A DNA stretch of 24,247 nt, taken from IMG/VR virus record IMGVR_UViG_3300025117_000222, positions 1-24,247 of that record. One strand, written 5' to 3'. Each line of letters begins with the position of its first letter. The stretch's first letter is position 1. The translations under genes and the position numbers were made by a program. The DNA is from a virus. Below, piece after piece: positions 5,496 through 23,678 of this stretch. Below the pieces are notes generated by a model. The model ran no database searches. It saw only the letters and a program-made list of their open reading frames with translations, and had not been told where the DNA came from.

Positions 5496-5948
5496 CTACG
5501 GTACATAATAGACCCCCGTATACCAGGTTGCCCAATCTGTTGTTCTCAAGCCATAGTTCACAAGTTTTTGAGATATTTCTTCTTTTTGCTCAATATATCT
5601 TTTTCTTTTTGCATCTAATCCTTGAGCGTTTGAATGTCTTGTAAAATCTTTATCCTGAAGAAAGTTGTTCATTTGCAAGATGTCATCGATTTCGTGTTCG
5701 AGCCATCTTTTTTTCATTAAATCAGCAAGCATGTTCATGTTTACCTGCGTTAAGGTTTCCGTAAAAGTTGTTCCACTATAAGTTAAAACCTGATCGCAAG
5801 TATCAAATTCAGCAATTGCCGGAATCAACCAGCCTTCAAGGTAAGATTCGAAGTCTGTCAAGCTTGTGTTATAGAGATTTGTAAGTCGATAATCTTCTTG
5901 GAGGGTCATGAATAAATCATATACGCTACTAAAAAGCGTTCCTGTCAT
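5496..5948 (-). CDS. Head-tail connector (adaptor) protein
   Basis: This 150-aa, mostly helical protein has GGAGG before ATG 5948. Features typical of phage DNA-packaging/connector adaptors are an N-terminal 'VYDLFMTLQEDYRL', a central 'YLEGWLIPAIAEFD' and 'ADLMKKRWLEHEI', and a C-terminal coiled region 'KRKRYIEQKEEISQKLVNYG'. Adaptors of this kind form a ring below the portal that closes the head and receives the tail. Context agrees: after the capsid genes and before the tail genes. The stop is TAG, lies inside the next gene's SD, and is in frame with that gene. Confidence 0.65.
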   Translation of the reverse strand: MTGTLFSSVYDLFMTLQEDYRLTNLYNTSLTDFESYLEGWLIPAIAEFDTCDQVLTYSGTTFTETLTQVNMNMLADLMKKRWLEHEIDDILQMNNFLQDKDFTRHSNAQGLDAKRKRYIEQKEEISQKLVNYGLRTTDWATWYTGVYYVP

Positions 5949-6736: not shown

Positions 6737-7627
6737 TTACGATTCTGGGATTATGATTTCGCCAGATTTGATTTTTCTTTGGAACTCGTAAAATTGTTCG
6801 GGAGTGTTATTGCCAGAACCACACATTTTATGGAAAAGCGAATGTATTTCTTTTGTCAAACAAACTCCTAGCGGATATTTATTATGTAAACGAATGGTTT
6901 CATTGGTTATTTCTATTATTTCTTTATCGGAATATTTTCCAATGCTTTCTTTTTCTAATAATCCTAAATTAGAAATACTTTCTCTCAATATCATGTTAAA
7001 TCCATATAAATGGTGAATTACATCAAACCTATTCCCAGAAACAACACACCTGTAATCACAAGCTTTTGCGCTTTCTTTTTTCCATTCGGTAATATTCTTT
7101 TTTACTGAATTAAAAATATCCTCTAATCCGCCTTTCCAGTTCGGGTGTTTACTGCCCCGCCGATTCAAATATTGTTTTATCTTAGTACATGTTTGGCAAT
7201 TATTTTTTCTATAAAAAACAGCCAACGAACAATCTGTTTTATGACCAAATTGGCAAGTATAAATTATTCTAGATTTTTGATTTTTATATCCATCTGGAAA
7301 AGAAACAAACGAAAGGCTGTTTCTTTTTAACATATCCATAATTTTCTCAATAGGAACCCTAGAATCTAAGTCTTGTTTTATTCTCGAACAGACTTTACAT
7401 CTAGTTCCATTTTGGAGACTAGCATAAGATATTTGGTTGGAATGTCCGCACGGAAACAATATAAGCAATTTACTTTTATTATTTACATATTCTCCGCTTA
7501 TATACTTACAGTCAAAACCAATGATACCTTCTATGACTTTCTGCATAGGATTTCTTTTTGTTAAACTAATCTTTTTCCCTCTTTGAATATAGCTTTGTTT
7601 TATGTCTTTGCTCATAAAAAACATCAT
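6737..7627 (-). CDS. Free-standing HNH homing endonuclease with zinc fingers
   Basis: This is a 296-aa protein. Residues ~60-80 (CGH...CKVC) and ~125-147 (CQFGH...CQTC) are two zinc-finger-like DNA-binding modules. 'HPNWKGG' (161-167) and a C-terminal HNH core follow: C194-V-V-S-G, D202-V-I-H205-H206, N211, then H262-S-L-F-H266. The HNH motif is a beta-beta-alpha-metal nuclease that cuts DNA to start gene conversion. The gene sits just downstream of the major capsid gene, which holds an ORF-less group I intron. It has its own promoter, structured leader and terminator, so it looks like a selfish insertion. ATG 7627 follows GAGAGAG; an in-frame ATG at 7615 is an alternative start. Confidence 0.85.
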   Translation of the reverse strand: MMFFMSKDIKQSYIQRGKKISLTKRNPMQKVIEGIIGFDCKYISGEYVNNKSKLLILFPCGHSNQISYASLQNGTRCKVCSRIKQDLDSRVPIEKIMDMLKRNSLSFVSFPDGYKNQKSRIIYTCQFGHKTDCSLAVFYRKNNCQTCTKIKQYLNRRGSKHPNWKGGLEDIFNSVKKNITEWKKESAKACDYRCVVSGNRFDVIHHLYGFNMILRESISNLGLLEKESIGKYSDKEIIEITNETIRLHNKYPLGVCLTKEIHSLFHKMCGSGNNTPEQFYEFQRKIKSGEIIIPES

Positions 7628-7770: not shown

Positions 7771-8097
7771 TTATGCCACCGTCATAAGTCCAGCTACGGC
7801 ATTGGTCGCTACAGCAGCTTGCCAATTTTTAATAAATGTAGCATTTTGGCTCAAATTTGAATTATCGAACGGAGCAGTAACGTTGCTCAGAGTAGAGCCT
7901 TCAATACAGAGTTTAACCGGCTTGTTAACGCCAACAGCAAGAACATAAACATTGGCGTCACTCAAAGCCAGAGTAAACGGAGTATTCCAAGCAGCGATTT
8001 GAGGAAGAACCATTGTATCAAATCCGAAAGCGGTACGGACATAACCGACTTTCACTAGGTCACTTTCAATATCATATCTGTAATTTCCCAATTCATA
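7771..8097 (-). CDS. Major capsid protein, exon 2 (C-terminal 108 aa)
   Basis: After intron removal this segment begins with the TAT codon at 8097 (YELGNYRYDIESDLVKVGYV...) and continues exon 1 in frame. It carries the typical C-terminal capsid strands 'TAFGFDTMVLPQ' and 'VNKPVKLCIEGS'. It has no SD and no proper start of its own (only an internal TTG), so it is not an independent gene. The spliced capsid protein would be 265 + 108 = 373 aa, normal for an HK97-fold shell protein. It ends at TAA 7771. Confidence 0.8.
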   Translation of the reverse strand, partial: YELGNYRYDIESDLVKVGYVRTAFGFDTMVLPQIAAWNTPFTLALSDANVYVLAVGVNKPVKLCIEGSTLSNVTAPFDNSNLSQNATFIKNWQAAVATNAVAGLMTVA

Positions 8098-8371
8098 CCC
8101 TCGGTTTCCCGATATTTATTAGGGTTTAGAGCACATCTTCATCCTTCAAAAGAAGGAGCATGGCGCTTCTGACTACGGGATTTCACCGCAGACATACTTC
8201 CTTTCGGAATGCTCGTTTCACCTTTTCTCAAAGAGAACTAGGCACAGAGTTATCGTGTCTTATAAGATTTAGACTTTCTCTGTTAGCAGGAAAAATAATT
8301 TCCCACACCCTGAATTTTCAGGTTCACCATGTTATTTTTTATTGCGTTACCGCAATAGCAGACTTAAATTA
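8098..8371 (-). ncRNA. Group I self-splicing intron in the major capsid gene (274 nt, no ORF)
   Basis: Exon 1 runs into a stop codon directly after ...LPAD, and the capsid sequence resumes 274 nt later in a compatible frame. P1 is visible: the exon end GCAGAT pairs with intron GTCTGC, giving the conserved U-G wobble at the 5' splice site. A P2 hairpin ATTGCG-GTAA-CGCAAT, a P5-like CCTGAA/TTCAGG, a P7 candidate ACAGAG/CTCTGT and distal hairpins TTCC-GAAA-GGAA, TCCTTC-TTTT-GAAGGA and TCGG-GAAA-CCGA follow. The intron would end in G (...CCGAGGG) as group I introns do. It has no coding capacity of its own; the nearby HNH gene may be its homing partner. Confidence 0.82.
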
Positions 8372-9166
8372 ATCTGCGGGTAAAACATATTGCAATGCGC
8401 GTTGCGTACCAGCAAGAATAACTTTTGCTCCACCGTTCCATGCAGAAACACGTTGCCCAAGAGCGATAAGGGCATCTTGACTATATCCAACAACCTTCAT
8501 GTAGGCATCAGTGGTAGTAGTCAAAGCACCCATTGCGGTAGCAAATACATTGTAGGTATCGACGGTCATCTGAGATTCAATCGACCTGATTGCTTTAGCA
8601 ACAAACTCGGCCAAAGATTCTTTGCCAGCCAGAACTTTATAAAGAGCAACTTGAACGGTAATTTGATGAGGAACTGGAACAACTGTCACAGTTGTATCAA
8701 ATTGTTTGTGAACTTCGCTGGCTTTTTGTCCGTGTCCAGACTTTGAAATAACAAACAGGTCACGACTTTTTATATCGAAACTGAAACTGTCCCCAAAACC
8801 GGCAAACTTTGTATCAGAGTATAAACCAATGGAATCCACTAGAACCTCTGGCAAAATTGTATCGATGAGAGCCGAAACCACCGCGAAACTGGCCCATCTC
8901 ACACTAGGATGAGAAGCCCATTGTTCCAATGGGATGCTTGGGTCAATATTAACCTGTGACACACGAGCGATTTCGCGCTTGAGAGCCGCATTCATTTCCA
9001 ATTCTTTTTCAGCAAAGGAAAGGGGAGTACCATCTTTTCTAATCTGAGAAAACTCTAAAGTTTTCTTGGAGTTGAAACTGGAATAGTGTCTCCAATAATC
9101 CACAAACATTTCGTAAGGGGACGTATCGGTAGCAAACTGTAAAACATTCAACGGAATTTTAACCAT
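8372..9166 (-). CDS. Major capsid protein, exon 1 (N-terminal 265 aa)
   Basis: GGAGG precedes ATG 9166. The sequence has features of HK97-fold shell proteins as placed in this gene order: an N-terminal arm with 'YEMFVDYWRHYSSFNSKK', a long helix region, and 'AWNGGAKVILAGTQRALQYVLP' immediately before the break, equivalent to the 'gtr' strand region before the A-domain. The reading ends at TAA 8369, inside the intron. Position after the protease-scaffold and two small structural genes supports the assignment. No frameshift is needed: removing 8098-8371 joins GAT to TAT and keeps the frame. Confidence 0.82.
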
Positions 9167-12430: not shown

Positions 12431-12901
12431 CTAAGAAAAACTCGCGTCAAATAAAACCAAGTCCTTCACATTCCTTATTTTTAGAGCAAATTCTTGGGCT
12501 TCATCTTCCTCTTTCACCTGCTCAGAAAGCATTTCTAAAATAAAGGGTAAATCAACATATGATTTCAATTCCTGCGCCAACTCGTATAAACTTTCAATTG
12601 ATTCTGTTGTAGATTCCTCAATCTGAATATACAAATCTGCGATTTCAAAGTTTCCTGTTTTTATCTCAGGAGCGGGAACGTCTCCGATAGAAACACTTCC
12701 TCCAGTTCTATCGTTTATATATTGAATAAATCGATTGGCATGAACTTTTTCTTCTTCGGATTGTTTTCTAAAATAAGCGGATAATTTCTTGAGTTGTAAA
12801 TCTTCAAAATAAGATTCGATTTGACTGTATGCCAATTGATTCGAAAACTCTTTTACAACCTCTTGGCATAAAGCGTCATTAAGTGAATTTGATAAGTTCA
12901 C
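12431..12901 (-). CDS. ftn: Ferritin (non-haem, ferroxidase-competent) in the capsid operon
   Basis: This 156-aa four-helix ferritin starts at GTG 12901 behind GGAGG; earlier in-frame ATGs lie in or before a terminator hairpin. The ferroxidase ligands known from bacterial ferritins are all present: E18 (KEFSNQLAY), E51 and H54 (EEEKVHANRF), E95 (IEESTTES), Q128 and E131 (SEQVKEED). Helix-loop blocks match too ('YFEDLQLKKLSAYFRKQS', 'FIQYINDRTGG', 'SLYELAQEL'). Ferritins oxidise Fe(II) and store it in a 24-mer cage. Here it lies between a structural gene and the protease-scaffold gene, so expression should be late. The stop is TAG, in frame with the next ORF. Confidence 0.88.
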   Translation of the reverse strand: MNLSNSLNDALCQEVVKEFSNQLAYSQIESYFEDLQLKKLSAYFRKQSEEEKVHANRFIQYINDRTGGSVSIGDVPAPEIKTGNFEIADLYIQIEESTTESIESLYELAQELKSYVDLPFILEMLSEQVKEEDEAQEFALKIRNVKDLVLFDASFS

Positions 12902-15412: not shown

Positions 15413-16561
15413 TCATAATCCTAATTCTTTTGTAAGAATTTTCTCAATGTTATTAAATTCCCAATATGGAATTCTTAAAATATTTATTCTATTGTGTTTA
15501 CAAAACTCATTTTTTATAGCGTCTCTTTTTTTGCCAGCGTCAAAGTGTTTCTGCTCGACATCCTTTTTTCTGTAGGGTCTGTAATGCAATTCACCATCAT
15601 ATTCTAAAACAAAAGAAATTTTTGTTTTTTCACAATTTTCATATATTATAAAATCAAAGATTAAATGTTTTATATATTTGCAACCCGGTATTGATCTATG
15701 TTGATTGTAAAAAATACCATTTTTTCTTAAGAAAGAATCTATCTTCTTTTCCCCTTTGGATTCACAACACTTCGGACAACCCTTTCCGCCAACTCTATTG
15801 GCGCAATCGGAAGGATAACCATGACCGCACTTTGGGCAAATCCAATAATAACCGCCACTCCCCTGGGATGCAACACGAGACGGAATAGTTTTATTTTTAG
15901 AATAGTCCCATTCTTTTGCTATCTCTGGATATAAATATTCTAAATTATTATATTTTCCTATTCTGTGACTGGCACAAAATGGACACCCATTCCCTTTTGT
16001 AAACTGATGCCAAGACATTGGAAATTCTTTCTCGCCACAAACGGAACAATCGAACAATAAATCGTCTGATGTTCCCACATATTTCTGGTTTTCGCAAAGC
16101 GAAAGATGCAAATTATTTTTGTGCAACCATAATCTTATGTTTTCTATTGAATAATCATTTCCCTTGTTAACTATGGAAAATCCAATCCCGGATTCATAAT
16201 TTGTTCGTATGTGTTCAAATGAGAGGCTATAAAAATACCCATTGGAATCTTTAAATTTCATTTTTGTTTTTGCTGTAATGGCATATTGTTTTTCACAAAG
16301 AATCAAATCAATATCTCTATAACTAAACCACAAATGTATATTTTCTATTCTAAAAGGATTTGACATATGGAACTTGTCAAAAGAAAATCCCATTCTTATA
16401 GATTTAATGATGATTCTGAATCTTAATGCATATTTATACCCATCAGAATCGGAAAAATAAATTTGCTTTGGGGAAGAAAATCCTTCGTTATCTAGTAATT
16501 TCAAGTTTGTATTATTAAAAAATTCCTCCACAAATCTATTTGAATAATCTATTTTTTCCAT
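15413..16561 (-). CDS. Homing endonuclease with zinc ribbons and a PD-(D/E)XK/Vsr-like nuclease domain
   Basis: This 382-aa protein has AGGAG before ATG 16561. Two ~60-aa repeats (~36-95 and ~100-160) each carry 'GY-Y-L-F' and 'IEN-LW' and probably contact DNA. Two zinc ribbons follow: C172/C175 with C193/C196, and C242/C245 with C262/C265. The C-terminus (~271-382) is nuclease-like: 'LIFDFIIYE' (D303), 'VLEYDGELHY' (E320, H326), 'KKRDAIKNEFC' and 'ILRIPYWEF'. This is the arrangement of Vsr/EDxHD-type homing nucleases. It is wedged between terminase and portal, two conserved genes, with its own promoter, structured leader and terminator. It is presumably a selfish element that drives replacement of the allele lacking it. 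Confidence 0.8.
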   Translation of the reverse strand: MEKIDYSNRFVEEFFNNTNLKLLDNEGFSSPKQIYFSDSDGYKYALRFRIIIKSIRMGFSFDKFHMSNPFRIENIHLWFSYRDIDLILCEKQYAITAKTKMKFKDSNGYFYSLSFEHIRTNYESGIGFSIVNKGNDYSIENIRLWLHKNNLHLSLCENQKYVGTSDDLLFDCSVCGEKEFPMSWHQFTKGNGCPFCASHRIGKYNNLEYLYPEIAKEWDYSKNKTIPSRVASQGSGGYYWICPKCGHGYPSDCANRVGGKGCPKCCESKGEKKIDSFLRKNGIFYNQHRSIPGCKYIKHLIFDFIIYENCEKTKISFVLEYDGELHYRPYRKKDVEQKHFDAGKKRDAIKNEFCKHNRINILRIPYWEFNNIEKILTKELGL

Positions 16562-16689: not shown

Positions 16690-18513
16690 CTACATTACCA
16701 TCGTAACCGCCAAAATTGCTTCTTCATCACTCATCCCATCTTCTTGTCTCAGCAAATCTCTATCAAGAACCGTTGAAACAAAATAGTTAAGATATGATAT
16801 GGCGGTATAACGGTCTTTTAGTCCATTACCCTCATCGAGTTTAATTGTTCCATTAACTATACTCATCTCCAAATTGAGACATTCCCCAACGAGGAGATTT
16901 GATTGGATAAATGGATGCAAAAACCACGTCCTCATAGATAAATCATCTTTTGTTTCCAAAAACTCTTTGGCGTTTGTTTTAATTAAATGGTCTTCCGCGT
17001 CCAAGTCGCTACAAAGAAAATCCCAGAGTTTCTTCTGCAACACTCCCCTGAAAGCAACCGCTATTTCACTATTTAATTTTTGAGTCGCTGAAATAGGAAA
17101 TACAACAGGAAGAGCGTTTACTCCAAGCGTTCTATCTCTAAGTTCTTCTTTTACCTTTTCATCAACGTGCGGAGATTCCAATACGGTAAATGGAGGATAT
17201 TCAACCCCTCTTTCCGAGTTAACCGTTACGCTTGACATGCTGTCAAATATGGAAATCCCAACCTGCTGAAGATCAAGCACCAAATAATCTGCGCCGAAAT
17301 CATAAAAAAGCTCTTTTATTCTCAACGCTTGGGATATGGTATTACTCCCATGCGAACTTTCCAAATAGCAAAGTTTTCGGTTATAGCCGCGATGCGTCGG
17401 AAGCAGTCTGGCGCAACCTATAATACTATTATCGTTTGCTCGGTTTGCCCGACTAGCAATATCTACGGCGATAACCCTTATCTCCCCATCCTGTTTTGGA
17501 ATACCATATGGATTTTTCTTAGAAGCATTGTCCTGACGCATAGGATAAAAAGCATTTTTGATATTTCTAGGAAACATTTGAGATTTGAAATATGCTTTTC
17601 CAGATTGCCCAGCCGGAATATTCTCATTCTCCAAACTAAACGAGATTGGGTCTGCTTGTTCCCTTTCTGCTTCTATTTGTTTTCTGGTTTTTATTTTATG
17701 AAAAACCGTAATCAAATAATCAGTGGCAAAAAACCCGGCGCTTTTTCCTTCTAGCATCATCTTTATTGTGGATACACAGTCTAGCCACCACCACTCTGAT
17801 TTGAACCCGCAAGAACTGAGACTAATTTTTTTAGGCTCCTCGTCGGGATAATCGGAGTATTCTGGGTTATCTTTAAATTTGGCGGGTCTGACATAGAGAA
17901 AAGGAATAAAAACCGTATCTACAATCTCTTTTTTCAAAAGACGGAATTCATCTAAAATAAGCGTGGTTGCTCGATTTCCTTTTCCGCCCTCGTTGGCAGC
18001 AACAACCCTCATAATGCTTCCGTTCGCAAAAATGGCTTCGTAATTATTCAGATTCGCAGTAAGAGAAATAATCTCTCTTTCAAGAATGGGAGAATCGTTT
18101 CTCATTTGTTGAACCTTGGAGCTTAAAATAAGCCCAGCCTGTTTAATTGTTGAACTTCCGATAACCACCAAACTCCCCGGATAAAGTATGCATCGGGCAA
18201 TACTGTATGCAGCGCACAAAAACGATTTCGCGCTTGCGCGCGAGCAAACACTCGTAAACACATCCGACACAGACATTAAATATAGCCAAATTTTTTGATA
18301 GGGAAAAAGTTTTATTCCCATATACATTTCAATAAACAGTCCGACATTTCTACGAAACAAGGTGTTCCAAGCGATAATATTTTCTCTTTTTTGCGTTTCT
18401 ATGTCATTTGCAAGAACCATGTCTTTTCGTTTTCTAAAAACATTTTTTGTTTTAGAGTCTTTGCGAAAATCATCCTGAAATGGTCTGTTCGGTCTTCCCC
18501 GTTTCTGGTTCAT
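16690..18513 (-). CDS. terL: Terminase large subunit (packaging ATPase and nuclease)
   Basis: This 607-aa protein starts at ATG 18513, six nt after GGAGG and overlapping the small subunit gene by 44 nt; an ATG at 18552 has a poorer SD. ATPase motifs, numbered from this start, are a Walker A-like 'CSRASAKSF' (~90-98), Walker B 'LILDE' (~185-189) and a coupling motif 'SLSSCGFKS' (~231-239). The RNase H-like nuclease has D351 in 'VIAVDIASRA' and D414 in 'YLVLDLQQVG'. TerL docks on the portal, pumps DNA into the prohead and cuts the concatemer. The stop is TAG, then one sense codon, then TGA. Confidence 0.92.
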   Translation of the reverse strand: MNQKRGRPNRPFQDDFRKDSKTKNVFRKRKDMVLANDIETQKRENIIAWNTLFRRNVGLFIEMYMGIKLFPYQKIWLYLMSVSDVFTSVCSRASAKSFLCAAYSIARCILYPGSLVVIGSSTIKQAGLILSSKVQQMRNDSPILEREIISLTANLNNYEAIFANGSIMRVVAANEGGKGNRATTLILDEFRLLKKEIVDTVFIPFLYVRPAKFKDNPEYSDYPDEEPKKISLSSCGFKSEWWWLDCVSTIKMMLEGKSAGFFATDYLITVFHKIKTRKQIEAEREQADPISFSLENENIPAGQSGKAYFKSQMFPRNIKNAFYPMRQDNASKKNPYGIPKQDGEIRVIAVDIASRANRANDNSIIGCARLLPTHRGYNRKLCYLESSHGSNTISQALRIKELFYDFGADYLVLDLQQVGISIFDSMSSVTVNSERGVEYPPFTVLESPHVDEKVKEELRDRTLGVNALPVVFPISATQKLNSEIAVAFRGVLQKKLWDFLCSDLDAEDHLIKTNAKEFLETKDDLSMRTWFLHPFIQSNLLVGECLNLEMSIVNGTIKLDEGNGLKDRYTAISYLNYFVSTVLDRDLLRQEDGMSDEEAILAVTMVM

Positions 18514-21267: not shown

Positions 21268-22218
21268 CTATCTCAACAAACTTTCCCTTTTTGCTTTTGA
21301 TGTGGAATTTTTTGATACGCGATTTATTGCACCACAATTATTGCAACGTCGCGATTGATATTCGCCCAAATTTGTATAATATGGCTGTCCCAAAATAACC
21401 AAATCTTCATACCCGCAATTCTTACAACGAGACGCGTTGTTTTCATAAAACATTCCAATATTGGGATGACGATTATCCCATGCCCTCACCGCAAGATAAA
21501 GTTCCTCTTCGCTCAAAATATCCCCTTGGTTATATTGCTCCATTAGTTTCAGAGCTTTCAAATTCCCCTCGGAACATTTTGCCCACAGCGGGAACCCTTC
21601 ATTATCAACTTTTTCTGTAAGTCCAAGAACTCCGTTGACATAGTTTAAGCGATTATATGTGAATGCAAAGTTATACTTCAAAATTCTGAGAGTATCGATT
21701 GTTCGATACGGGGACGGGGGTTTCATTCCATAATAAAGAAATCGCGTATTTGATTTTGGAATATCAAACTCATTGATATTATGACCAATTAGTATTGATG
21801 AACTGTCAAACTCTTTCCATAGTCCGCTAACAATTCTTTTATCATTTCTCTTTAGCGCTTCTCTTGGAGTCAGGCATTGACTTCGAATTTCTCCCAGCAT
21901 TAAATCCTTGGCCGCCCAAGAGCAGATAATCCAATCATCAATTAATTGGGCGGGGCCAATATCCTCTTTCCATGTTTTCCAAGCATATGCCCGCAGAGGA
22001 AGAGTCTCAATGTCAAAAATAACCACATGATGAGAATCCAGCCCAATTGTTTTTTGAGGAGCAAAACTTTCTCTCCGGTCTCTTTCTCGCCTAAATTCAG
22101 AACGAAGTTTTTCAACATTTTTATATCCGTTCCGCGTTGCTAAATCTTCCCAAAACCCATCTACTTTATTGTAGCGATTCGAATGTTTCAGACAATCTGT
22201 GTACAATCGTTCGTCCAA
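21268..22218 (-). CDS. DnaQ-like 3'-5' exonuclease with C-terminal zinc ribbon
   Basis: This 316-aa protein starts at TTG 22218, seven nt after GGAG. The N-terminal ~50 residues are charged and helical (HTH-like, 'WEDLATRNGYKNVEKL'). The RNase H-fold exonuclease core has Exo I 'VIFDIETLP' (D69, E71), Exo II 'LIGHNINEFDIPK' (D152) and Exo III 'YNQGD' (Y229, D233). Residues C265/C268 and C292/C295 form a zinc ribbon. DEDDy enzymes of this type trim 3' ends of DNA or RNA in replication and repair. It lies just after the suppressor tRNA. The stop is TAG, with 26 sense codons before the next TAG. Confidence 0.8.
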   Translation of the reverse strand: MDERLYTDCLKHSNRYNKVDGFWEDLATRNGYKNVEKLRSEFRRERDRRESFAPQKTIGLDSHHVVIFDIETLPLRAYAWKTWKEDIGPAQLIDDWIICSWAAKDLMLGEIRSQCLTPREALKRNDKRIVSGLWKEFDSSSILIGHNINEFDIPKSNTRFLYYGMKPPSPYRTIDTLRILKYNFAFTYNRLNYVNGVLGLTEKVDNEGFPLWAKCSEGNLKALKLMEQYNQGDILSEEELYLAVRAWDNRHPNIGMFYENNASRCKNCGYEDLVILGQPYYTNLGEYQSRRCNNCGAINRVSKNSTSKAKRESLLR

Positions 22219-22248: not shown

Positions 22249-22319
22249 CTGGCAGAAGTTGAATCGAACAACCGACTTCTAGTTTAGAGCTAGATATTTT
22301 ACCACTAAACCATCCGCCA
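22249..22319 (-). tRNA. Amber suppressor tRNA (anticodon CTA), glutamine-type body
   Basis: This is a full 71-nt cloverleaf. Acceptor TGGCGGA/TCTGCCA (7 bp), D-arm GTTT-AGTGGTA-AAAT, anticodon arm TCTAG-CTCTAAA-CTAGA (5 perfect bp) with CTA at 34-36, variable AGTC, T-arm GGTTG-TTCGATT-CAACT. The anticodon reads UAG. The weak U1-A72 pair, G73 discriminator and U35 are known glutaminyl-tRNA synthetase identity elements, so it probably inserts Gln. No CCA is encoded. It is transcribed between a 64-aa ORF and the exonuclease. Confidence 0.9.
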
Positions 22320-22562: not shown

Positions 22563-22634
22563 CAGGCCTTCCAGTGTTCGGGACTGGGAAGCAGGGGTTG
22601 GAATCCTGCGGTTTACCTCTGAGCCTAAAGGCCT
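22563..22634 (-). tRNA. tRNA-Trp (CCA anticodon)
   Basis: This is a 72-nt cloverleaf. Acceptor AGGCCTT/AAGGCCT (7 perfect bp), A1-U72 and G73 as in bacterial tRNA-Trp, positions 8-9 TA, D-arm GGCT...AACC (3 of 4 pairs), anticodon arm CAGGA-TTCCAAC-CCCTG with CCA and one A-C mismatch at the loop end, T-arm CCAGT-CCCGAAC-ACTGG. The T-loop has CC in place of TT. Its first ten nt are the last coding bases and TAG stop of the toxin gene. No CCA tail is encoded. Confidence 0.72.
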
Positions 22635-23107
22635 ATTGACAACAACTCTTTCTCTATTTTTAGAACATCTGGAAGAATAATTCTCGCACCCATTCTTTGT
22701 AAATTTAGAACCCTTTTCGCGGACACGATTATACTATTGGCAAAAGCCCCATCCAACACGGGGTGCGTCCTATCTGCCCCAACATATTCAGACTCTATAT
22801 AGTCAAAGGTTGATGGGCACATATTCTGCACCAAAAAAACCTTATTTTTACCAAAGATGCTCCCAAAGAAAATAGTATCACATCTACCATACTTTTTTAT
22901 TTTTGTCTCTCTAATTTTCTCAAACTTTGAGATATTAGAAGAAATAGGTATCATCCAAAAAAGATTTGTTTTATTGTCTAAGAAAGAATAAAAACAGGGT
23001 CTACCGTGTTTCTGCCCACCAACAGATTCCTTGTTCTGCATAAGATATGGGTCTTGAAATCTTTCAAAATATTCGTCTTTTAAAAAATAAAAATGTCCAA
23101 TATCCAT
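22625..23107 (-). CDS. Type III toxin-antitoxin toxin, ToxN/AbiQ/CptN-like endoribonuclease
   Basis: This is a 160-aa protein starting MDIGHFYFLKDEYFERF at ATG 23107 (SD AAAGGG); a longer reading to 23182 would run through the repeats. Blocks I recognise from CptN/ToxN-like toxins are 'DPYLMQNKE', 'GRPCFYSF', 'FWMIPISSNISKFEKI', 'CDTIFFG', 'VFLVQNMCP', 'AKRVLNLQRMGARIILPDVL'. ToxN toxins are sequence-specific RNases held inactive by a repeat RNA that they themselves process. Upstream are two 48-nt repeats and a hairpin terminator, the classic type III order. Family-level identification is from memory of motifs, so the subfamily is uncertain. Confidence 0.7.
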   Translation of the reverse strand: MDIGHFYFLKDEYFERFQDPYLMQNKESVGGQKHGRPCFYSFLDNKTNLFWMIPISSNISKFEKIRETKIKKYGRCDTIFFGSIFGKNKVFLVQNMCPSTFDYIESEYVGADRTHPVLDGAFANSIIVSAKRVLNLQRMGARIILPDVLKIEKELLSIGL

Positions 23108-23129
23108 GTTTCCCTTTCTGATTTTATCG

Positions 23130-23149
23130 GGGAGTCGTTTCCGACTCCC
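23130..23149 (-). terminator. Terminator/attenuator between antitoxin repeats and toxin gene
   Basis: GGGAGTCG-GAAA-CGACTCCC is an 8-bp perfect hairpin with a GNRA loop, 12 nt after the second repeat and 22 nt before the toxin ATG. The following CGATAAAATC is only weakly U-rich. That suits a leaky attenuator, which in type III systems keeps antitoxin RNA in excess over toxin mRNA. Confidence 0.75.
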
Positions 23150-23160
23150 TAAGATTTGTG

Positions 23161-23256
23161 CATGGCATCTTGTATCCCGCATACCACGTAGCGGACAATA
23201 TTAGTTTCTTGGCATCTTATATCCCGCTATACCAAGTAGCGGCAAACATTTGTTTC
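23161..23256 (-). repeat. Two 48-nt tandem repeats: putative type III antitoxin RNA
   Basis: The units are 23256-23209 and 23208-23161. Both begin GAAAC and share CCGCTAC, TGGTAT, GCGGGATA and AAGATGCCA, roughly 80% identical. Each contains a small hairpin: CCGCTA/TAGCGG in the first, CCGC/GCGG in the second, with the flank changed so that pairing is kept. Antitoxin RNAs of type III systems are arrays of such units, each folding into a pseudoknot that binds one toxin monomer. Long units in low copy number are reported for CptIN-like systems. Confidence 0.72.
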
Positions 23257-23274: not shown

Positions 23275-23276
23275 AG

Positions 23277-23350
23277 TGGAACTGGAAGATTATGATTCTT
23301 CAACCTTCTCTTTGCAAAAGAGTTGCTCTCCCACATTGAGCTACAATCCC
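23277..23350 (-). tRNA. tRNA-Ala (TGC anticodon) with divergent T-loop
   Basis: This is a 74-nt cloverleaf. Acceptor GGGATTG/CAGTTCC with G3-U70, the main alanyl-tRNA synthetase identity pair, and A73. D-arm GCTC...GAGC, anticodon arm ACTCT-TTTGCAA-AGAGA giving TGC, variable AGGTT, T-arm GAAGA-ATCATAA-TCTTC. The T-loop lacks the usual TTC, so tertiary folding may be altered. No CCA is encoded. It is transcribed from the tandem promoters ahead of the antitoxin repeats. Confidence 0.8.
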
Positions 23351-23351
23351 A

Positions 23352-23565
23352 TTTTAGGGCATATTTCAGTCCCCGTTGCAAGTTTCTACGCAGTCTCCCA
23401 TAGCTCCTCAGGAATACCCAAGGCGGTCTTAACGACTCTATGAAACTTGCAAACAGTCTTTATGCTGGTAGTTGTGCCTTCACGTCTTTACCCTCCCATA
23501 TCGGCTCTGGGAAAGACCAGCAAGATTGAGGAACGAACATCTTATTCATCGACATTTGAGCATGA
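23352..23565 (-). ncRNA. Putative structured noncoding RNA upstream of tRNA-Ala
   Basis: This stretch between the second tandem promoter and tRNA-Ala has no credible ORF but dense pairing. A perfect 11-bp stem TTGCAAGTTTC/GAAACTTGCAA encloses about 55 nt that itself holds CATAG/CTATG and smaller stems. TGCTGGT/ACCAGCA encloses CCCA/TGGG and CTTT/AAAG. GATTGAGGA, upstream of the second promoter, pairs with TCCTCAATC downstream of it, but only in transcripts from the first promoter. It could be a regulatory RNA, a riboswitch-like leader, or a trans-acting phage RNA. No known family was recognised. Confidence 0.5.
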
Positions 23566-23567
23566 AT

Positions 23568-23596
23568 ATTATAGCATAACTTTGAACTTTTGTCAA
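23568..23596 (-). promoter_or_regulatory. Strong sigma-70 promoter, proximal (accessory unit)
   Basis: TTGACA, a 17-nt spacer and TATAAT, matching consensus exactly. It should drive the structured RNA, tRNA-Ala, antitoxin repeats and, by leakage, the toxin and downstream genes. Confidence 0.9.
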
Positions 23597-23649
23597 GTAG
23601 CAATATTCCTCAGCTTCGTAGGGCTTACCTGTCCTCAATCCTATCGTAG

Positions 23650-23678
23650 ATTCTACCACATATCTATTTGTTTGTCAA
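23650..23678 (-). promoter_or_regulatory. Strong sigma-70 promoter, distal (accessory unit)
   Basis: TTGACA, a 17-nt spacer and TAGAAT, with ATGTGG before the -10 as in the endonuclease promoters (TGn). It lies 82 nt upstream of the proximal promoter, so two transcripts with different 5' ends are expected. Confidence 0.85.

Follow-up and report, generated by a model that had tools for sequence, protein, structure and literature searches.

Gene order and relatives of the phage fragment

The window analyzed here, 24,247 bases long, is a linear virus record of IMG/VR that carries nearly all of its genes on the minus strand. Its gene order of terminase large subunit (TerL), portal, ferritin-like protein, capsid and major tail is that of the ~90-107-kb phages of Enterocloster and Thomasclavelia. 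Portal identities range over 22-34%, and the closest TerL, at 66% identity, is encoded on a 7-kb contig (L010). Two HNH homing-endonuclease-like genes sit among the structural genes (6737-7627 and 15413-16561, minus strand). The major capsid gene (7771-9166, minus strand) is split, and a single capsid protein of Enterocloster phage PMBT24 is matched by its two parts taken together (residues 4-258 and 264-367). The insert of ~280 nt matches a group I intron at 18.4 bits, below the threshold.

The tRNA and toxin block

Toward the end of the window lies a block of tRNA and toxin genes headed by two promoters of the sigma-70 type. One is a 12/12 match, TTGACA-17-TATAAT with an extended -10 (23568-23596, minus strand), the other an 11/12 match (23650-23678, minus strand); the motif is also present in L047, L057, L044 and L037. 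Behind the promoters follow a tRNA-Ala, the gene for a CptN-like toxin, a Trp-like tRNA that has decayed, one small gene, a tRNA with the anticodon CUA and an exonuclease gene.

Both ARAGORN and Rfam detect the tRNA-Ala (UGC; 23276-23350, minus strand), which has G3-U70 and an unusual T-loop reading ATCATAA in place of TTCGAAT. The ~250 nt separating it from the consensus promoter (23352-23600, minus strand) contain neither a conserved gene nor an Rfam match and are possibly a structured noncoding RNA. The toxin locus (22625-23182, minus strand, and 23163-23256) encodes a protein resembling the type III toxin CptN (PDB 4rmo_A, E=4.8e-20). Ahead of the toxin gene stand two direct repeats of 47-48 nt, a candidate for the RNA antitoxin CptI, and this toxin and repeat locus had no match in the phage collection. 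The tRNA-Trp-like element with anticodon CCA (22564-22634, minus strand), recognized by its fold and an Rfam tRNA score of 17.9 bits, falls under the Rfam cut-off and overlaps the end of the gene that terminates at 22625. An A31-C39 mismatch leaves it a 4-bp anticodon stem, so that it is either a tRNA relic or a divergent tRNA. Anticodon stems of 4 bp on tRNA-Trp permit reading of UGA (PMC13092985). That the phage raises readthrough of UAG with the CUA tRNA and of UGA with the Trp(CCA)-like tRNA at once, while keeping a standard-code genome, is hardly credible to us.

A tRNA with anticodon CUA and glutamine-type identity elements

The tRNA with anticodon CUA (22249-22319, minus strand) is the best-formed of the window. 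ARAGORN calls it, and Rfam RF00005 (tRNA) scores it at 60.4 bits (E=5e-11). The anticodon CTA (positions 34-36; 22285-22287, minus strand) lies in the loop CTCTAAA, every stem of the cloverleaf is paired, and U8, A14, G18-G19, U33, the T-loop TTC and A58 are all kept. CCA is not encoded in the gene. Read from the sequence, the acceptor end consists of U1-A72, G2-C71, G3-C70 and G73, accompanied by G10, U35 and A37. This combination corresponds to the Gln set of E. coli, and of the Gln identity elements, U1-A72, G2-C71, G3-C70, G73, U35 and A37 are all present when read off the Rfam alignment. The original prediction had described a perfect cloverleaf with CTA anticodon, U1-A72 and G73, and the ARAGORN call that it proposed as a check, the Rfam score and our reading of the sequence agree with that description.

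ARAGORN labels this tRNA 'Pyl' because the anticodon is CTA and for no other reason. The tRNA does share the CUA anticodon and G73 with tRNA-Pyl, but the latter has a 6-bp anticodon stem, a reduced D-loop and an unusual T-loop, whereas the tRNA of the window is a standard cloverleaf with U1-A72, a 5-bp anticodon stem and ordinary D- and T-loops. We thus rejected a tRNA-Pyl identity. Its elements support a Gln-type amber suppressor, for which charging and suppression are predicted.

Might the tRNA be an accidental anticodon mutant without a selected role, whose expression or charging is poor and whose loss is to be expected? Its neighbors do decay, as seen in the Trp-like element at 17.9 bits and in the odd T-loop of the tRNA-Ala. 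The CUA tRNA itself, however, retains full pairing in its stems as well as the conserved tertiary bases, which makes this explanation improbable.

TAG serves as an ordinary stop codon

As evidenced by 30 gene ends in the window (17 TAA, 10 TAG and 3 TGA), TAG is in regular use as a stop. The counts of TAG and TGA are those reported earlier, while the totals of 29 ends and 16 TAA each had to be raised by one. For ORFs of at least 90 aa the TAG share is 31% (8/26) in the window vs 21% (40/195) in relatives matched by GC (37-43%). With p=0.31 in this comparison, we rejected a raised TAG share as a signal.

Reading TAG as Gln adds little to the coding potential of the window. Coding density is 0.928 under code 11 and 0.959 under code 15 (TAG=Gln), a gain of 3 points that lies below the 5-10% threshold for a recoding call. 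Within the 24-kb window, the count of in-frame TAG proposed with the original prediction gave none in the TerL, portal and capsid genes, whose proteins align with those of the relatives.

The positions of the TAG stops are likewise shared with homologs. Most homologs in the fetched loci terminate at the window TAGs or only a few residues away from them. This applies to TerL, the exonuclease, the major tail and the two genes with ends at 230 and 6023; for the genes whose TAGs lie at 1485, 20567 and 22625 these loci contained no homolog. Where relatives could be aligned, their stops at or near these positions are TAA, TAG or TGA. The TAG of TerL (16690-16692, minus strand) coincides with the stop of most relatives. 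After the TAG of the exonuclease gene (21268-21270, minus strand) neither TAA nor TGA occurs for 51 codons, and homologs end within ~3 residues of it. Two further TAGs are in frame with the next gene. At the one that closes the ferritin-like gene (12431-12433, minus strand), TAG recurs at this position in L017 and L023, and L002 and L049 also have a stop; at the other (5496-5498, minus strand) a stop is also found in the relatives L025, L027 and L077.

Alignments at 5496, 12431 and 16690 partly run beyond the TAG, yet at the boundary the relatives carry stops of their own. The run-past is caused by a downstream gene that shares the frame or, for L010, by an alignment that continues beyond a stop. 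A first tally of homolog ends had suggested readthrough fusions at 5496 and 12431 as well as an extended TerL in L010, and these candidates were discarded once the alignments showed the boundary stops of the homologs. Among the alignable homologs, none has conserved sequence continuing through a window TAG.

Overall, the data support that UAG is not reassigned: it ends about a third of the visible genes, TerL included. The central claim of the original prediction, a Gln-type amber suppressor in a phage whose genes still terminate at TAG, is therefore supported, with 10/30 TAG ends and no recoding in the visible genes. The phage could still be recoded in part, with in-frame TAG translated as Gln in genes of the ~three quarters of its genome outside the window (tail fibre, lysis or other late genes), as in code-15 phages. 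As a linear fragment, the window covers 24 kb while its relatives measure ~90-107 kb, and crAss-like phages restrict recoding mostly to their late genes (PMC7886860). However, the late head and tail genes that are visible (TerL, portal, capsid and major tail) lack internal TAG and ten genes end in it, so we regard partial recoding as a minor possibility.

Second stops after TAG occur at the control rate

It had been proposed that TAG is leaky, that backup stops limit the damage and that a few TAGs serve regulated extension. The six backup stops on which this rested are all present within seven codons: after the TAGs at 230, 1485, 6023, 16690, 20567 and 22625 the next TAA or TGA follows 1, 5, 2, 1, 6 and 3 codons on, respectively. 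They do not exceed the control rate, though. A second stop within seven codons is found for 6/10 TAG genes vs 7/20 TAA/TGA genes of the window (Fisher p=0.18). Shuffling the bases of the 21 nt downstream of the window TAG genes gives p=0.04, and because this test alone would indicate an excess, relatives were needed as a control. In related phages in which a CUA tRNA was not found, 45% of TAG genes (68/152) and 38% of TAA/TGA genes have such a second stop. The backup stops thus give no indication of an adaptation that limits damage. A second stop close to the first is frequent in AT-rich phages, and it proves nothing when such a control is missing.

Four of the ten TAGs lack a nearby backup, and readthrough at 5496 or 12431 would join two separate conserved genes. 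A purine (A or G) directly follows TAG in 8/10 cases, compared to 56% in relatives, and contexts that favor suppression therefore show no sign of being avoided. As to regulated extension, the homologs that align across a boundary also have a stop there, which speaks against this part of the proposal. Leaky UAG with damage-limiting backups and a few regulated C-terminal extensions would fit the second stops near 6/10 TAGs and the shuffle at p=0.04, but with a similar rate at the TAA/TGA genes and at the TAG genes of relatives, stops in the homologs themselves and no conserved extension, we consider it very improbable.

Alternatively, the suppressor may target the host, with readthrough of host stops disturbing host or defence proteins and phage genes being little affected. 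This has been proposed for crAss-like phages (PMC7886860, PMC12386605), and the strong promoters upstream of the tRNA block would suit such a role. Strong suppression, on the other hand, predicts that UAG is rare in the phage, as in zeta crAss-like phages (PMC12386605), while in the window it is common and backed up no better than in relatives. We see a slim chance for a suppressor directed at the host.

A conserved tRNA slot and the origin of the CUA tRNA

The CUA tRNA lies just upstream of a gene for a DNA polymerase exonuclease subunit (21268-22218, minus strand; phrog_403, E=2e-80; TTG start, TAG end), and 30 nt separate the tRNA 3' end from the TTG. This gap looks too short for an HDV-like (theta) ribozyme at the 3' end of the tRNA. 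Comparison among related phages reveals that the exonuclease gene marks a conserved tRNA slot. In front of exonuclease homologs we found tRNA-Thr (L037, L044 and L083) and, directly upstream, Gln-UUG (L052). Genes that share the N-terminal domain of the exonuclease are preceded by tRNA-Asn in L053 and, at a distance of 23 nt, by Gln-CUG in L036.

Of 81 distinct tRNAs, the most similar to the CUA tRNA is L121, a CTA tRNA recovered in a pattern search; ranks 2 and 3, both from related phages, are Gln-UUG, one of them from the exonuclease slot. In this slot, Gln tRNAs with sense anticodons occur in L052 (Gln-UUG) and L036 (Gln-CUG), but their sequence identity to the CUA tRNA is low: the latter reaches only ~65% identity with the Gln tRNAs nearest to it and aligns poorly with the Gln-CUG of L036. 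The likeness to Gln tRNAs at the acceptor end is partly due to the shared Gln identity elements.

A CUA tRNA is absent from the tRNAs called in 80 TerL-relative loci, which are fragments, and from tRNA loci retrieved out of 10 larger related records (fragments as well, with a few Rfam matches left out). Exact and degenerate tRNA patterns run against viral and genome contigs found no near copy; the few CTA tRNAs recovered (L089, L090 and L121) are in contigs not known to be related, and the very low yield of these scans is uninformative on how frequent such tRNAs are. Blastn of the CUA tRNA against phages found no convincing tRNA relative, nor did the exonuclease and CptN-like proteins find a relative when used as queries of viral contigs. 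Judging from slot position and isotype, the likeliest and simplest origin would be a tRNA-Gln already resident in the phage whose anticodon has changed.

A probable idle suppressor in a standard-code phage

With a probability of about 0.6, we interpret the locus as a phage-borne Gln tRNA that now pairs with UAG while the code is not reassigned, i.e., as suppressor pre-emergence or an idle suppressor. We favor this reading because the tRNA is canonical at 60.4 bits with a Gln-type acceptor, G10 and A37; because TAG use is normal and homologous genes end at or near the window TAGs; because the slot is conserved and Gln-UUG ranks nearest once the CTA tRNAs fetched by pattern are set aside; and because no CUA tRNA was found among the tRNAs called in the TerL-relative loci and the tRNA loci of larger related records, and precedents exist (PMC7886860, PMC12386605). 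In the proposed sequence of events, a single base change, G36A, would have turned the anticodon CUG of a phage tRNA-Gln into CUA, in the slot at the exonuclease gene that relatives fill with Thr, Asn or Gln tRNAs. If expressed, the tRNA would receive Gln from GlnRS, or through GluRS and GatCAB together, and would then compete with RF1 at UAG. The outcome may be partial readthrough of UAG as Gln in phage and host messages of infected cells.

Code switching in phages must start with a suppressor tRNA while the codon still serves as a stop. The fragment resembles such an early stage outside crAss-like phages, with UAG still common, and would be a useful natural example in which to study how far a standard-code phage can tolerate suppression.

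Suppressor tRNAs that occur without reassignment in crAss-like phages have been termed 'suppressor pre-emergence', and in one traced case a tRNA-Gln was made a suppressor by anticodon mutation (Yutin et al. 2021, PMC7886860). Similarly, the 24-kb window combines a suppressor tRNA with conserved genes that lack reassignment, and both cases have a phage tRNA with a stop anticodon and no reassignment seen in TerL, portal or MCP. The published case concerns TAA (UUG to UUA) in alpha crAss-like phages, whereas ours concerns UAG in a relative of Firmicutes phages, and the parent tRNA is here deduced from slot and isotype instead of from a near-identical sister (PMC7886860). Zeta crAss-like phages keep unused CTA tRNAs without recoding, as the window does, but in those discussed TAG is rare, with another stop soon after it (PMC12386605); in the window it is common and backup stops occur at the ordinary rate. 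With code-15 phages (TAG=Gln) the window shares a Gln-type CTA tRNA, but its conserved genes lack in-frame TAG, with none in TerL, portal or MCP within the 24,247-base fragment, and its density gain of 3 points stays under 5-10% (PMC9523058, PMC10607447). A suppressor without recoding is thus a kind already described, here in a relative of ~100-kb Firmicutes phages, and it differs from the published cases in its host group and in that TAG is still common.
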